This document shows, piece after piece, positions 1,290-13,329 of a DNA stretch of 34,017 bases. This DNA is from Rubidibacter lacunae KORDI 51-2 (lineage in GTDB: Bacteria; Cyanobacteriota; Cyanobacteriia; Cyanobacteriales; Rubidibacteraceae). Location of the stretch: NCBI RefSeq assembly GCF_000473895.1, contig NZ_ASSJ01000046.1, positions 1-34,017 on the forward strand, in the 5' to 3' direction. Made by a program: the position numbers and the translations under genes. Within the stretch, counting starts at the first letter, position 1; each line of letters starts with the position of its first letter. The notes beneath the pieces were generated by a model that worked only from the letters and a program-made list of their open reading frames with translations, was not told the DNA's origin and ran no database searches.

Positions 1290-3221
<1,932 letters not shown>

Positions 3222-3755: not shown

Positions 3756-4055
3756 ATGATGCTCGCTTGCAAGGAGGTCGGGGAGAAGTATTGCCTTCAG
3801 ATACGCGATTTCGACCCGAATCTCGACAGCATGTTCGATCGCATCGACGGCATGCCTATGCGCTTATCGAGCAAAGCGATCGCGGAAATCCTTCCCCAGA
3901 CCCCTAGAATCCTCGGGCCCGAACATCAGGCAAACTGGCTTTTCTTAGGCGAGGTCCTTCAAGCAATGGCTAGCCAAAAAAAACGCACGACCGTGGAGTG
4001 GGCAAAAGCGCTATTAGCGCGGACAATTGGGTCAGATATGGGCTTGCTCGTATGA
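3756..4055 (+). CDS. Uncertain 99-residue ORF coupled to the DUF3038 gene
   Basis: I do not recognise this 99-residue frame. What supports it is structural. Its TGA stop overlaps the ATG of the downstream DUF3038 gene in an ATGA (4052-4055), a common arrangement for translational coupling, and its codon use resembles the neighbours (a HIP1 site is read as Ala-Ile-Ala). The predicted protein is mixed and soluble, with a helical-looking C-terminal half containing LFLGEVLQAMA. Against it, no clear ribosome site precedes the ATG at 3756, and a perfect AAGGAGGT at 3771-3778 lies inside the frame without serving any useful start. It may be chance or the remnant of a longer gene. Confidence 0.3.
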   Translation: MMLACKEVGEKYCLQIRDFDPNLDSMFDRIDGMPMRLSSKAIAEILPQTPRILGPEHQANWLFLGEVLQAMASQKKRTTVEWAKALLARTIGSDMGLLV

Positions 4056-4621
4056 TTCGCTTGCGTCCGATTGCAGCACCCCCAGCCCGTGACGAGGCAT
4101 TGCTCGCTCGTTCTCCAGCTGAAGAACGTCTTGAAAACATCAAGTCGCACCTGGACTTGCTGCTGCTTGCCCTAGAGGCGATCGCCGGACTTAGCTCCGA
4201 GGCTATGCTTGATGCTGCACGCGAGTTAGGAGTGGAGGCGATTGCCGATCGCGTCGGGCTCTGGAGGTTGCGACAGTCTAATCCTTTGCGCAAAAGCTCC
4301 GGCGGACGCAAGAAGCTCGACGTGGAGGAGGCAAGATCGCTGGTTCTTGTTATCTGCCACCTTGCCCGGCAACAACGCGACATCCTACGCCAGGCGATCG
4401 CAGTGCTGGAACAGGTTGCCATGCAGGATCGACCGCCCCACAGACATCCGCTTCTCGGCGACTACCTCGACGCCTTTGCCAACTTCTACCAAGAGCGAAT
4501 GCAAGACGATACGGCACCTAAAGATGCCCTTGAAGACCTTGCGCTTAAATTGCTTGTTGACTTGCTGTTCTATAGCGCGCCACACGGTCGCCGGCGCCTT
4601 TGGACGGCATTGATCGATTGA
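4052..4621 (+). CDS. DUF3038 domain protein
   Basis: This is a conserved cyanobacterial protein of unknown function, 189 residues from the chosen ATG. It is predicted to be soluble and helical. Family-typical stretches recalled from other cyanobacteria are visible: the LDLLLLALEAI helix near the start, then LWRLRQSNPLRK, KKLDVEEARSLVL, LGDYLDAFANFYQERM and the closing LALKLLVDLLFYSAP. The frame is also open upstream to a GTG at 3998, but the ATG at 4052 overlaps the preceding ORF's stop as ATGA and puts the first conserved helix near residue 30. The next gene encodes a DUF4335 protein, the usual partner in cyanobacterial genomes as I recall. That pairing strengthens the assignment and suggests the two act together. 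Confidence 0.85.
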   Translation: MIRLRPIAAPPARDEALLARSPAEERLENIKSHLDLLLLALEAIAGLSSEAMLDAARELGVEAIADRVGLWRLRQSNPLRKSSGGRKKLDVEEARSLVLVICHLARQQRDILRQAIAVLEQVAMQDRPPHRHPLLGDYLDAFANFYQERMQDDTAPKDALEDLALKLLVDLLFYSAPHGRRRLWTALID

Positions 4622-4629
4622 GCTAACTG

Positions 4630-4679
4630 ATTGAGTCGACCGAATGTGCGATCGCGCGGTTTTACGCGATTGACTCAAT
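4630..4679 (+). promoter_or_regulatory. Nested stem-loop between the DUF3038 and DUF4335 genes
   Basis: ATTGAGTC (4630-4637) is perfectly complementary to GACTCAAT (4672-4679). Inside it, ATCGCG (4651-4656) pairs with CGCGAT (4665-4670). The structure starts nine bases after the DUF3038 stop and ends 57 bases before the DUF4335 ATG. No T-run follows. Attenuation, an RNA processing site, or a terminator that separates expression of the two genes are all possible. Confidence 0.5.
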
Positions 4680-4736
4680 TGCACTCAAGTTCTCCCCGAC
4701 CAAACTACTGCACGCTACCGCCCCTTGCCACTTGCC

Positions 4737-6209
4737 ATGGGTCTGCCCTCGCTCCTGCGCTGCTACGACTATCCCACTTGCACTCTCGAAGTTCGCGGCC
4801 GGCAATCGCCCCTGTCGCGCTGGACCGGACGCCCCAGCGTCCGAAATCTGCACTTTACCCTCACCCTTGACGACCCGCGCCACACCGACCGCGAACCCCT
4901 GTCGCTGGCAGGAGATAGCGATCGCTTGCTGGTACTTGAGGATATTGTGACTGCTGCTGTTGGCGCGCTGCTCGCCCCGGTATCCGTTTCTACAGGATCT
5001 TCCACCCCGTCAGCGATCGCCACCCACACCTTACCTCTGGGCGAACTAGCGACAGAAAATACGGGTCCAGCTCTGAAACTCGGGACGTTGCAGCTATTTG
5101 ACCTTGCAAATGCTATCGATGACTGTACTGCAGATGTCAATTTCGTACTCGCGACCGCAGCTCCCAGGAGTCTGACAACGGTGCCAACCTGGACAGCCGC
5201 TGCTGCCACGTTTATAGCCGTTGTTGGCTTATCAGCAATCGCGTTACGCTTCGACCAGTTTGCTGCGCAAACTGCAGGCGAACAGAGCGATGCCGAAACC
5301 GAGGTAGCCGTTGGGCTCGAGCGCTTACCTCAACCGCGCAACGACATCGAACTCGACCGCGAGTTTGTAGAACCCTTAGCGGAGGTCGATCGCCTACCGC
5401 CACCCCCGGCTTTGCGATCGCCGCGCCCGTCCTTGCCCGATGCTTCGCCAGACCTCGTTGCCCCGCCGCCCACTGTCAGCACTGCCACCCCCAGCGTCGA
5501 AGACGAACCCAACGAAGCAGTGGCGATCGAAGCTCCCGCATCGACCCCACAACTGCCAGCCGATCCTCCAACACTACCGTCCGAGTTGCCCGAACTCTCC
5601 GCAACCAACGAAGCAGCCGATGGTGCAACGGCCCCCGGAAAGAATGCGGGCGCACCCAGTACTGCAGCCGAGTCAGGTGTGGCGATCGCTTCCGAACCCG
5701 GTGTTGCTGTCGCACCCGAACAGGCAGCTTCCCTGCGACTGCGAGAAGAAGGTTCTGCGTTAAGCGATCGCTTTGACAGACGCGCAAATGCTCCTGGGTT
5801 TGCGACTGGCGACGCCCGACCCCAAACTGACGAACAACGTCGGTCTGCCATTGCGGTCGTGCCATATGGCCCTGCACCTGAAGCTAGCGAGCCGACAACT
5901 GAGTCTCTACCAGCCGCCGCATCTGAATCTATCGCAACTGCTGGTGAGGTGCGGGCGTACTTTCAATCTCGCTGGCAGCCGCCGAACGATCTCAACAGTA
6001 CGCTCGAATATCGACTGATCCTGGATGCAAATGGAGCACTAGAGCGGGCGATCGCGCTCGGCACTGACTCCCAAGCGTTCCAGTCGGCCGCACAACTGCC
6101 GCCGGTTGGCACGCAGTTTGCATCGCCGACGCCCGGTCAACGCGCCACAGTGCGCCTCGTACTCACTCCCGATGGCTCGGTGCGGACATTCCTGGAGTCG
6201 CCGGAGTAG
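4737..6209 (+). CDS. DUF4335 domain protein, single membrane span, Pro/Ala-rich linker
   Basis: Function unknown. The 490-residue protein has three parts. An N-terminal domain (about 1-145) has the family-like opening TCTLEVRG and SPLSRWTG. One hydrophobic span (about 151-171) follows. Then a long low-complexity region rich in Pro, Ala, Glu and Ser (about 175-395) leads to a compact C-terminal module (about 400-490) containing FQSRWQPP, YRLILDANG and VRLVLTPDGSV. That tail resembles the small alpha/beta domain at the end of TonB-like proteins. The topology suggests a cytoplasmic domain anchored in the membrane with an extended periplasmic or lumenal arm; this is inference. A TTG at 4725 would add four residues, and I prefer the ATG at 4737. 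It follows the DUF3038 gene after a 115-base gap holding a stem-loop. Confidence 0.8.
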   Translation: MGLPSLLRCYDYPTCTLEVRGRQSPLSRWTGRPSVRNLHFTLTLDDPRHTDREPLSLAGDSDRLLVLEDIVTAAVGALLAPVSVSTGSSTPSAIATHTLPLGELATENTGPALKLGTLQLFDLANAIDDCTADVNFVLATAAPRSLTTVPTWTAAAATFIAVVGLSAIALRFDQFAAQTAGEQSDAETEVAVGLERLPQPRNDIELDREFVEPLAEVDRLPPPPALRSPRPSLPDASPDLVAPPPTVSTATPSVEDEPNEAVAIEAPASTPQLPADPPTLPSELPELSATNEAADGATAPGKNAGAPSTAAESGVAIASEPGVAVAPEQAASLRLREEGSALSDRFDRRANAPGFATGDARPQTDEQRRSAIAVVPYGPAPEASEPTTESLPAAASESIATAGEVRAYFQSRWQPPNDLNSTLEYRLILDANGALERAIALGTDSQAFQSAAQLPPVGTQFASPTPGQRATVRLVLTPDGSVRTFLESPE

Positions 6210-10336: not shown

Positions 10337-11125
10337 CTATTGCCGGTCGAGCTGACGGGCTTTGTAGAATGCTTCGAGGCTGTCGCGATCGCCGACGTAA
10401 CGCCAGTGCCATGGTTCGTAGCTGATACCTTGGGAGTTGTTGCGTGGGAACGACAGCTCGAAATGAAAGCGACTGGCATTCGCTTGCAACCAGTCAAATG
10501 CCGCCGTGTCCTCGAAGGTCTCTTCAACGTGAGTTGCAGGAACCCTCCCATCGCCAATATCGACGGCGTAGCCGGTGTGATGTTCGCTATAACCGGGCGG
10601 CGCACTGACGTTGGCTCGATCGCTGGGGTTTTGCGAGCGCTGAGCGGCTATTCCGAAGAACAAGTAATCCTGCTCGGATAGCGTCCGGAACCCCGAAAGT
10701 GGCTCCAGCAAAATGCCGTCGGCACGGGCAGCAGCTTGCATCTCAATAAAGTCCGCAGCAGCAATTGCGTGCAGGCGTATGCGTCCGTCTGCAGTTAGTG
10801 CGACCAAGTCGGAGGCCTGGGCTTCATCGTACGGCAAGTGTCCGAGAACGCCATCGTCTGGAGCGCGAGCTTCTTCGGAACTGAGTGCGGGTTTGTCTGT
10901 CGGTTCGGGGGCGGCTGTCGGAACGTTCGGTTCGAGAACAGAGGCATCAGGTGCTGGGACCATTCGCGTCAGTAGCCACGTGGCGACTGTGGCTGCAACC
11001 ACAGCAGCTCCGGCACCTATAACCAGAGCGAGGTTGCTGCCAGTTGAGGATCTTTTCGGCTGCGGGCGATCGCGTCTGGCTTCAGGAATATCATCGCCAT
11101 AGGTGCGGAAAGTGGGCTTCGGCAT
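10337..11125 (-). CDS. M15-family D-alanyl-D-alanine carboxypeptidase (VanY-like), membrane anchored
   Basis: A zinc peptidase expected to trim the terminal D-Ala of peptidoglycan stem peptides. Residues 1-30 are charged and cytoplasmic, a single membrane span follows at about 31-54, then a Pro/Ala/Glu-rich linker to about residue 95, so the catalytic domain should face the periplasm. The M15B signature S-x-H-x2-G-x-A-x-D is at 180-189 (zinc ligands His182 and Asp189), and EPWHWRYVG at 237-245 supplies Glu237 and the third ligand His240. SGFRT at 144-148 is also typical. The length of 262 residues fits the family. A GAGGT sits immediately before the ATG, closer than usual. It lies 200 bases downstream of thiO-thiG on the same strand. 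Confidence 0.9.
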   Translation of the reverse strand: MPKPTFRTYGDDIPEARRDRPQPKRSSTGSNLALVIGAGAAVVAATVATWLLTRMVPAPDASVLEPNVPTAAPEPTDKPALSSEEARAPDDGVLGHLPYDEAQASDLVALTADGRIRLHAIAAADFIEMQAAARADGILLEPLSGFRTLSEQDYLFFGIAAQRSQNPSDRANVSAPPGYSEHHTGYAVDIGDGRVPATHVEETFEDTAAFDWLQANASRFHFELSFPRNNSQGISYEPWHWRYVGDRDSLEAFYKARQLDRQ

Positions 11126-11325: not shown

Positions 11326-13329
11326 CTAGCTGCCGACCTTACCCGTCAGCGGCGAACTGGCAATTGCTTCGTGCTTGACCGGAATGCGACCGGCGTGGCG
11401 GGCGAGGTAGCCCGACTCCGTTGCTTGGCCCATTGCACGTGCCATGGCAACCGGGTTCTCGGCCAGGGCGATCGCGCTGTTAACCAGCAAGCCATCTGCA
11501 CCGAGTTCCATCGCGTAGGCGGCCTCGCTGGGCGTCCCGATACCGGCATCGACAATAACGGGAACTTCGGACTCGGCCGCGATGATTTCGATGTTGGCAG
11601 CGTTCCGGATGCCCTGCCCAGAACCGATGGGCGACCCTAGCGGCATGACCGTCGCGCAGCCGATGGCTTCGAGGCGCTTGGCCAGTTGCGGGTCGGCATT
11701 GATGTATGGCAGTACTGCAAACCCCTCTTTGACCAACTGCTCGGCAGCTTGCAGCGTTCCGATCGGATCTGGCAGCAAATACTTCAGATCGGCGATCACC
11801 TCGAGCTTGACGAAATTGTTGTCTTCCTGCCCGAGGAGTTTGGCCATCTCGCGTCCGAGTCGCGCCACGCGCACGGCTTCCTCGGCCGATTGGCAACCGG
11901 CGGTATTCGGCAACATCCACAAGCGCGACCAGTCCAGGGCCTCGGCCAACCCTTCGTGACCGGGAGCTTTGGCCTGAACGCGCCGGACCGCTACGGTAAC
12001 GATCTCGCAGCCGCTGGCGACAATACTCTGTCGCATGAGCTTTAGGGTGGGATATTTCCCCGAACCGGTCATCAGTCGCGATCGAAAGGCTCGCCCCGCG
12101 ATCGTCAGCGGTTTCTCCTGGGGTAGGGGCGCGATCGCCTGCGGAACGGCGAGCGGAGCCGCTGGCGTAGCACTCGATAGAACTTTGCGCGTCCCGTTGC
12201 CATTTTGATGGCCGTTCTTGGTGTTGGCAGTTCCGCGACCGACCACGAGCTGAAATTGCGCTGCTGACTGGAAGCGGTCCCACCGAAACGGTTCCAAAAG
12301 TGGATGGGTGTGTTGGCGGACGATTAAGTCGGCGATCGCCCCAGCCGTGACTGGCGCGAGCAGAATGCCGTTGCGGTGGTGCCCGGTAGCGAGGATCAGA
12401 TTCTGGCAGGGACCGACGCCGAGGATCGGCAACTCGTCAGGGGTCGTCGGGCGATACCCCCACCACATCTGCTCGAGTCCCCAATTGCTGATGCCGGGAT
12501 AAAGCTGTTCGGCCCGATCTAACAGGCATCGAACGCCCGTCGGCGTAATGTTCGGCTGCCAGCCGACGTCCTCAACGGTTGCGCCGACGACCAAGCGACC
12601 GTCGCAACGAGGCACCAAGTAAGCACTATCCGGTCCGAACAACACCCGCTGGATCGGGAGCTGCTCGACACGCGGCATCCGCAGCGCCAGCATCTGTCCT
12701 TTCACCGGACGGACGGGAACCGGTAACATCTCATGCGACCACGCCCCAGCAGCAAGCACGTAATACTCGGCTGCAAAATCGCCAGCAGAGGTCCGGACGC
12801 CGACGACCTTGCCCTGGCGGCGAAGGAAGCCCAATGCCCGAATGCCTTCGCGGATTTCAACGCCTTTGGCGCGAGCTGCTTGCTGGAGTGTTGCGAACAG
12901 TTTGGCAGCATCAACCTGAGCGTCCTCGGGATACCACCAGCCGCCAACTACGTCCGGTCCGAGTCCGGGTTGATAGAGATCCAGCGTCGGGCGATCGAGC
13001 CAGGTTGCCGTATCGGTCGATCGCGGTTCGTGCGGAGCCTCTAACACGGGAGCGAGTATGCCGCAGGGCCAGTAACCGGTTTCCGAGCCGGCGATCGATT
13101 CGAGATTGCGGATCCATTCGGGGTAGCGCGCGCGCGACTCCAAACACAGATCGAGTAAGGGACTCGGCGGGATCTTTTCGGCTTGGGGCGCGATCATTCC
13201 TGCCGCCGCCCGCGTTGCTGCTTGTTGTGGGTTGCGACTGAGTACGACGGCGCGCGCGCCGCGCAAGCGCAGCTCTAGCGCGATCGCGACTCCCATGATG
13301 CCGCCGCCAATGATGATTGCGTCGCTCAT
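11326..13329 (-). CDS. thiO/thiG: Bifunctional glycine oxidase / thiazole synthase (ThiO-ThiG fusion)
   Basis: One 667-residue polypeptide joins two successive enzymes of thiamine thiazole synthesis. Residues 1 to about 365 are the FAD-dependent glycine oxidase ThiO: dinucleotide-binding GGGIMG at 8-13, AAGAWS at 193-198 and the C-terminal [11 protein letters not shown] at 316-326. A linker of about 40 residues, rich in Asn, Gly, Ala and Pro, leads to ThiG from about residue 406. ThiG shows [12 protein letters not shown] at 417-428 and VKLEV with the Schiff-base lysine at 508, then the phosphate-binding loops near the end. ThiO makes dehydroglycine, which ThiG condenses with DXP and thiocarboxylated ThiS. 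The fusion is known in cyanobacteria. AGGTAGG precedes the ATG. Other thi genes are not in the window. Confidence 0.95.

Follow-up and report, generated by a model that had tools for sequence, protein, structure and literature searches.

The window analysed here is the whole 34,017-nucleotide stretch of Rubidibacter lacunae KORDI 51-2 (NCBI RefSeq assembly GCF_000473895.1, contig NZ_ASSJ01000046.1, positions 1 to 34,017 of the forward strand), and our subject is a pair of adjacent plus-strand genes that an earlier note on this DNA had assigned to the cyanobacterial families DUF3038 and DUF4335. Both assignments are borne out: the first gene, at 4052-4621, matches PF11237 (DUF3038; E 2.2e-59, 200.7 bits against a curated cut-off of 25) and encodes 189 residues predicted to be all helical (structure model with a mean predicted local distance difference test score, pLDDT, of 82.9), while the second, at 4737-6209, matches PF14233 (DUF4335; E 1.7e-21, 77.5 bits against a curated cut-off of 27). 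Relatives agree better with a DUF3038 start at ATG 4052 than with one at GTG 3998; for DUF4335, ATG 4737 is aligned with the relatives' starts and gives 490 residues, and the listed start at TTG 4725 is probably not the one used. The same genome carries another such pair on a different contig, and we refer to the pair in the window as pair B and to the other as pair A.

An AlphaFold run on 33 B sequences (mean pLDDT 66.7, predicted template modelling score 0.37) returned for DUF4335-B the same plan that had been proposed from the letters alone, namely an N-terminal domain, one membrane span, a Pro/Ala-rich arm and a TonB-like tail. In the model two confidently predicted terminal domains flank a helix and a disordered region. 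In order, these are a folded N-terminal domain (hereafter the N-domain; model residues 5-141, positions 4743-5153), a predicted membrane helix (residues 153-180, 5187-5270), a disordered Ala/Pro-rich arm of about 215 residues (residues 181-393, 5271-5909) and a C-terminal domain with a predicted TolA-III/TonB-like fold (residues 395-490, 5913-6200). The PF14233 model covers the first 174 residues, that is the N-domain and the helix, leaving arm and tail outside it. Across the 33 B proteins the linker from helix to tail measures 136-265 residues (221 in the window protein, with 17.6% Ala and 14.9% Pro), and it would lie in the periplasm.

Linkage, duplication and probable partnership of the two genes

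A search with the B alignment found 352 loci. In the best 80 of these, all named loci, DUF3038 lies upstream on the same strand at 77, the other three being truncated at contig ends, and this arrangement recurs at 33 of 34 further B loci and at 30 of 31 A loci (L001, L003-L032), where the exceptional locus, L019, has a DUF3038 about 1.8 kb upstream. The operon is not obligatory, because in five genomes of family f8 (G056, G109, G119, G145, G151) the best DUF3038 match lies far from the best DUF4335 match when best matches are compared regardless of A or B type, and in G105 the second DUF3038 and DUF4335-B sit on different contigs.

The wider survey covered 244 genomes of the phylum, 114 of them of the same class or closer (the R. 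lacunae genome included) and 130 more distant, and the counts of DUF3038, DUF4335 and ExbD per genome were compared by eye in tables that include every genome with a match. DUF3038 is present in 113 of the 114 class-level genomes, even in those of 1.6 million bases, and DUF4335 in 108 of the 244, all of them class-level. Copy numbers of the two families are equal in 107 of 113 genomes, and the six mismatches (G107, G161, G163, G165, G219, G243) all fall in family f25. One genome of family f6, G051, has neither family above the cut-off; its congener G233 has two matches of each.

Because both gene trees split A from B by a single branch (SH-aLRT, the Shimodaira-Hasegawa-like approximate likelihood ratio test, 99 and 100), the sequences indicate that a two-gene DUF3038-DUF4335 cassette was duplicated once, giving pairs A and B. 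The trees were made by a quick method. The DUF3038 tree used 88 rows (taken from 141 distinct listed sequences, with the window added) and the DUF4335 tree 80, with one G159 gene entered twice; proteins of genus g2 (see below) and 80 named DUF4335 rows were left out, and the program flagged long branches, that of the window's DUF4335 among them.

Evolutionary distances couple DUF3038 to one part of its neighbour. Among the 115 B loci, 109 passed the requirements of a DUF3038 adjacent within 1 kb and a frame of more than 380 residues, and over these 109 pairs the partial r of DUF3038 distances is 0.66 for the N-domain and 0.14 for the tail. In a thinned set of 39 pairs the values are 0.64 and 0.07, and there the contrast holds in 99 of 100 runs with the N-domain cut to 60 columns and in 95 of 100 with it cut to 40, although a distance correlation of this kind cannot prove contact.

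Genus g2, which belongs to the window's family, has a single DUF3038 above the cut-off in each of its six genomes, of type A in G054 and G121, the two where the type was seen. A B-type tail is still found in four of the six, G054 and G248 giving no B-tail match. In three of these genomes (G245, G246, G247) the B N-domain is shortened to 110 aligned residues (133 in the window) and averages 28% identity with other B proteins (40% for the window), the corresponding figures for the tail being 40% and 39%; in G121 (L212:976-1845) the B-type frame is truncated, with 30 aligned N-domain residues and a tail at 36% identity. PF14233 is below its cut-off or without a match in the g2 B-type proteins, and the decay of their N-domain counts as one evolutionary event. 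By eye, the frame preceding the G121 gene resembles an antiporter. Since in this single-DUF3038 lineage the N-domain eroded and the tail did not, and since the distances track the N-domain, the comparison fits a docking of DUF3038 on the N-domain of DUF4335, with a separate job for the tail. A partnership of the two proteins is supported at the sequence level by their linkage, co-duplication and matched copy number together with the distance correlation and the g2 decay.

The DUF3038 model itself has no clear fold match (best Foldseek E 0.19, best VIA Z 3.9), which is not proof of a new fold, and the DUF3038 profile gives one match among solved structures, at E 0.52.

The tail and membrane helix of DUF4335-B

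Compared with VIA, the modelled tail resembles domain III of TolA (2x9a_B; Z 7.5, 2.9 Å over 83 residues, 19% identity) and E. coli TonB (1xx3; Z 5.5), and the 18 highest rows are all TolA, TonB or FusB; we predict from the model that the tail has the TolA-III/TonB fold. Sequence support for a TolA/TonB-like tail is marginal and comes by way of the A-type homologues. A profile of B tails picks up A-type tails (E 2.2e-10), and a single A-type protein just attains the Pfam TonB_2 level, at 22.1 bits with a cut-off of 22. The window's DUF4335-B matches neither TonB_C nor TonB_2 at E 10, and TonB_2 appears in one of the 33 B proteins (E 0.068). The same tail profile finds no tail at E 10 in the A-type proteins of G000 (the R. 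lacunae genome), G054, G121 and G036. Seven of 13 genomes in the genus of G042 have an A-type DUF4335 with two tandem TolA/TonB-like tails (E 0.001; for example L213:1474-2949). A profile of the full DUF4335-B gives four matches among solved structures, the best at E 0.93 and none to TolA, TonB or PUR.

Lysine and arginine are on average more frequent in the 15 residues before the helix than in the 15 after it (2.2 against 1.45 in B proteins, 2.8 against 2.0 in A proteins), a bias compatible with an orientation in which the N-terminus is inside.

TolA and TonB, which work with TolQ-TolR or ExbB-ExbD, likewise have one membrane helix, a long flexible region and a C-terminal domain of the fold predicted for DUF4335-B. 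Unlike them, DUF4335-B has a folded domain, some 140 residues long, ahead of its helix and an adjacent gene for a helical partner, and it is without an SHLS motif or a TonB_C or TonB_2 match of its own. According to PMC12204202, TolA and TonB bind their motor through the SHLS motif. Read by eye, none of the 33 B helix stretches contains it, and histidine occurs in two of the 33, beyond the hydrophobic core.

A likeness also extends to TonB1-TonB4 of Anabaena (SjdR/Alr0248, All3585, All5036, Alr5329), which are cyanobacterial and have a cytosolic part and a membrane helix, TonB2-TonB4 having in addition a linker and a TonB-box binding region. In genome G273 some 12 kb separate the A-type DUF4335 gene from a psbA gene, which we tentatively take to be alr4592 rather than all3572; the A-type protein is presumably not All3585. 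A TolA-like function has been proposed for TonB2 (All3585) from a mutant (PMC8597729, PMC8262864). The term DUF is absent from the main text of PMC8597729 and PMC8262864, both on Anabaena TonB proteins.

ORF99, the inverted repeat and the surrounding genes

Upstream of the pair lies a 99-residue plus-strand frame, ORF99 (3756-4055), whose TGA stop at 4053-4055 meets the DUF3038 ATG at 4052 in an ATGA overlap (4052-4055), as the earlier note had seen. A frame of at least 99 residues within 830 nucleotides has a chance probability of 0.62, that is, it is expected by chance. Codon use in ORF99 is coding-like (P 0.002 and 0.0013 against the open frames of two random models). The same note had treated the frame as a gene coupled to DUF3038 and had made this depend on homologues in related genomes: a search of 39 other relatives gave no credible match, the single hit (E 0.017) containing an internal stop, and across 168 sequence records there was no match at E 1 apart from the window itself. 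As far as these relatives go this counts against the proposal, although the codon use suggests a coding frame, and ORF99 may be a real orphan gene outside the conserved unit. We rejected ORF99 as an ancestral member of the operon, because DUF3038-B in G159, a genome of the same family, directly follows a mutS2 gene.

An imperfect inverted repeat (4630-4679) does separate the two DUF genes, with 13-nucleotide arms at 4630-4642 and 4667-4679 that are 85% complementary; a hairpin as a functional feature finds no support. Of 200 shuffles, 20 fold as well as the 63-nucleotide stretch (z -1.24) and 120 fold as well as the 122-nucleotide spacer stretch (z 0.33), and no terminator-like site was found in the spacer between DUF3038 and DUF4335. 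A role as regulator or terminator was rejected on these grounds.

Before the pair stand a plus-strand gene at 1296-3221, presumably gyrB, and, ahead of it on the minus strand, an IPP transferase gene that we take to be miaA; downstream, on the minus strand, come a Fer2 protein and a frame that we presume to be UbiD-like. Farther along the minus strand lie a VanY-type D-Ala-D-Ala carboxypeptidase (10340-11125) and a fusion of an FAD-dependent oxidoreductase with ThiG (11329-13329). The sole Rfam match in the window at the gathering threshold is a tRNA. Pair B elsewhere has a different setting: a mutS2-like gene precedes it at 65 of 115 loci, and downstream of it, mostly on the opposite strand, are ferredoxin (49), DUF1257 (43) and DUF2997 (27) genes, and the window pair lies outside this setting. 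Many of these B loci cover a flank of only 3 kb, and Pfam confirmed one representative each of the mutS2, ferredoxin, DUF1257 and DUF2997 neighbours, as well as MutS2 domains in G159.

Two loci in other genomes hold further features. In G159, the stretch L252:394-2099, which precedes mutS2 and pair B, contains the recurring peptides HNTFLIEVK and SQHLLNRGQT in different plus-strand frames, repeats that by eye resemble a CRISPR array. In G273, about 6 kb from pair A, a frame at L227:10063-10713 looks by eye like ExbB/TolQ; no ExbD-like frame was noticed beside it, again by eye.

A candidate periplasmic tether and its rivals

Our preferred reading is that DUF3038 and DUF4335-B form one membrane-anchored unit with a passive, TolA-like tether in the periplasm. 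DUF4335-B would be anchored in the plasma membrane, its N-domain facing the cytosol and offering DUF3038 a docking site; the disordered Ala/Pro arm would span the periplasm, and the tail would grip a partner in the outer membrane or wall, most likely through beta-strand addition, the binding mode of TolA and TonB. Because the SHLS motor motif is absent, we favour a tether or scaffold that is not proton-driven, which DUF3038 may control or position from inside. Taken whole, this is a tentative reading whose chance of being correct falls somewhat short of even. It shares with the earlier note the idea of a protein built to bridge the periplasm, for which the structure model, the fold match of the tail, the marginal TonB_2 match of an A-type protein and the mean charge bias all argue; the sequence-level TonB match that would be looked for in the window protein itself is missing.

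The A-type proteins point to what may be basic in the system. Eight of 45 A-type rows (one gene counted twice) fall short of 240 residues and stop shortly past the helix; arm and tail are kept in the B proteins aligned. Because these short proteins end where they do, the near-universal part of the system looks like a complex of DUF3038 with DUF4335 at the cytosolic face of a membrane, to which arm and tail are an addition.

Several observations weigh against the tether, and some of those raised by its rivals below do so too. Judged from their sequences, arm and tail are dispensable in the A-type. The VIA Z of the tail stays below 8, the tool's safe level, and may reflect a merely common arrangement, and the Foldseek E-values (FusB 0.066, TonB 1xx3 0.083, TolA 3qdr 0.11) are all above 0.06. 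A profile of the tail finds no match among solved structures at E 10. The A-type gene that reaches TonB_2 falls below the cut-off when scanned in its genome, with 16.6 bits, and the A-type protein of the R. lacunae genome has no TonB_2 match. As to topology, the window protein has one lysine or arginine before the helix and one after it, and the predicted span (1.94) is matched in hydrophobicity by another stretch (1.99) that starts at model residue 66, inside the N-domain.

The plan and tail fold shared with TonB and TolA would also suit a proton-driven transducer of their type, powered by ExbB-ExbD, with DUF3038 as its cytosolic regulator, and the distribution of ExbD speaks for such a machine and counts against a passive tether. 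ExbD is present in 79 of 80 genomes with two DUF4335 matches (the exception being G165, of f25), compared with 10 of 28 that have a single match. It is missing from 24 class-level genomes, namely 22 of the 23 of f25 plus G054 and G121 of g2, and all of these except G163 have a single DUF3038 match. A further f25 genome, G175, gives a weak ExbD match. This pattern depends, however, on just two lineages, f25 and g2, and G121 keeps a B-type tail without ExbD, albeit with a truncated N-domain. The SHLS motif is missing from all 33 helices, the two histidines lying outside the core, and the R. lacunae genome has three other TonB-like proteins whose TonB_C or TonB_2 matches exceed the cut-off. An energised transducer is, in our judgement, quite unlikely. 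The three proteins are encoded at G000:C49:162560-162811, G000:C4:163972-164190 and G000:C86:2835-3011, and the same genome has three ExbD matches.

Where the unit acts is a related question. Both families are absent from all 130 more distant genomes of the phylum, most of which have ExbD, which tells against a general envelope function and suggests that the pair is tied to photosynthetic cells rather than to envelopes generally. With DUF3038 in 113 of 114 class-level genomes and in none of the 130 distant ones, presumed non-photosynthetic, the unit might instead work in or at the thylakoid membrane, its arm and tail in the lumen. Plant ANU10 lends this some weight, again at the expense of a periplasmic tether, being a membrane protein of thylakoid biogenesis for which its authors, in their 2014 paper, noted a low-significance DUF4335 match (PMC4036511). 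That was the only paper on DUF3038 or DUF4335 that turned up among open-licence papers, and neither Pfam accession occurs in the 15 papers listed, of 34, in a second search; a 2025 review still calls the molecular function of ANU10 unknown (PMC12427647). The ANU10 match is weak; moreover, an arm of 136-265 residues would seem better suited to the periplasm than to a narrow lumen, and the fold of the tail is that of periplasmic proteins. We consider a thylakoid site, with a real ANU10 link, unlikely. A very improbable proposal, drawn from the model, is that the N-domain is a nucleic-acid-binding PUR domain through which the protein would anchor DNA, RNA or DUF3038-bound cargo to the membrane. 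The five top VIA rows for the N-domain are all PUR-alpha structures (Z 7.9-8.8, root-mean-square deviation 3.2-4.7 Å over 106-113 residues), and a mutS2-like gene often precedes pair B. By the tool's own note, however, a Z near 8 is common and close to its noise level; no Foldseek E for the N-domain is below 0.001, no Pfam PUR match occurs among the proteins scanned, and the linkage to mutS2 may simply reflect gene order.

Should the DUF3038-DUF4335-B tether hold, it would bear on how the outer membrane is held and constricted in cyanobacteria that have no full Tol-Pal system. One study (PMC12204202) came upon curated Tol-Pal systems in no lineage outside Gracilicutes; another (PMC8871954) describes a largely reduced Tol-Pal complement for the diderm group to which Cyanobacteria belong, where pal and tolB never turned up. 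It is because Cyanobacteria are reported to be without pal and tolB that a TolA-like pair is of interest here. On the broadest interpretation, to which we give a rather low chance, the duplicated cassette would be the cyanobacteria's own trans-envelope system: a near-universal cytosolic complex at a membrane, extended in the B copy by an arm across the periplasm and a TolA-like head that would link inner events to the outer membrane. The pair, a TolA-like protein conserved together with its own partner gene, offers a named candidate amenable to knockout.

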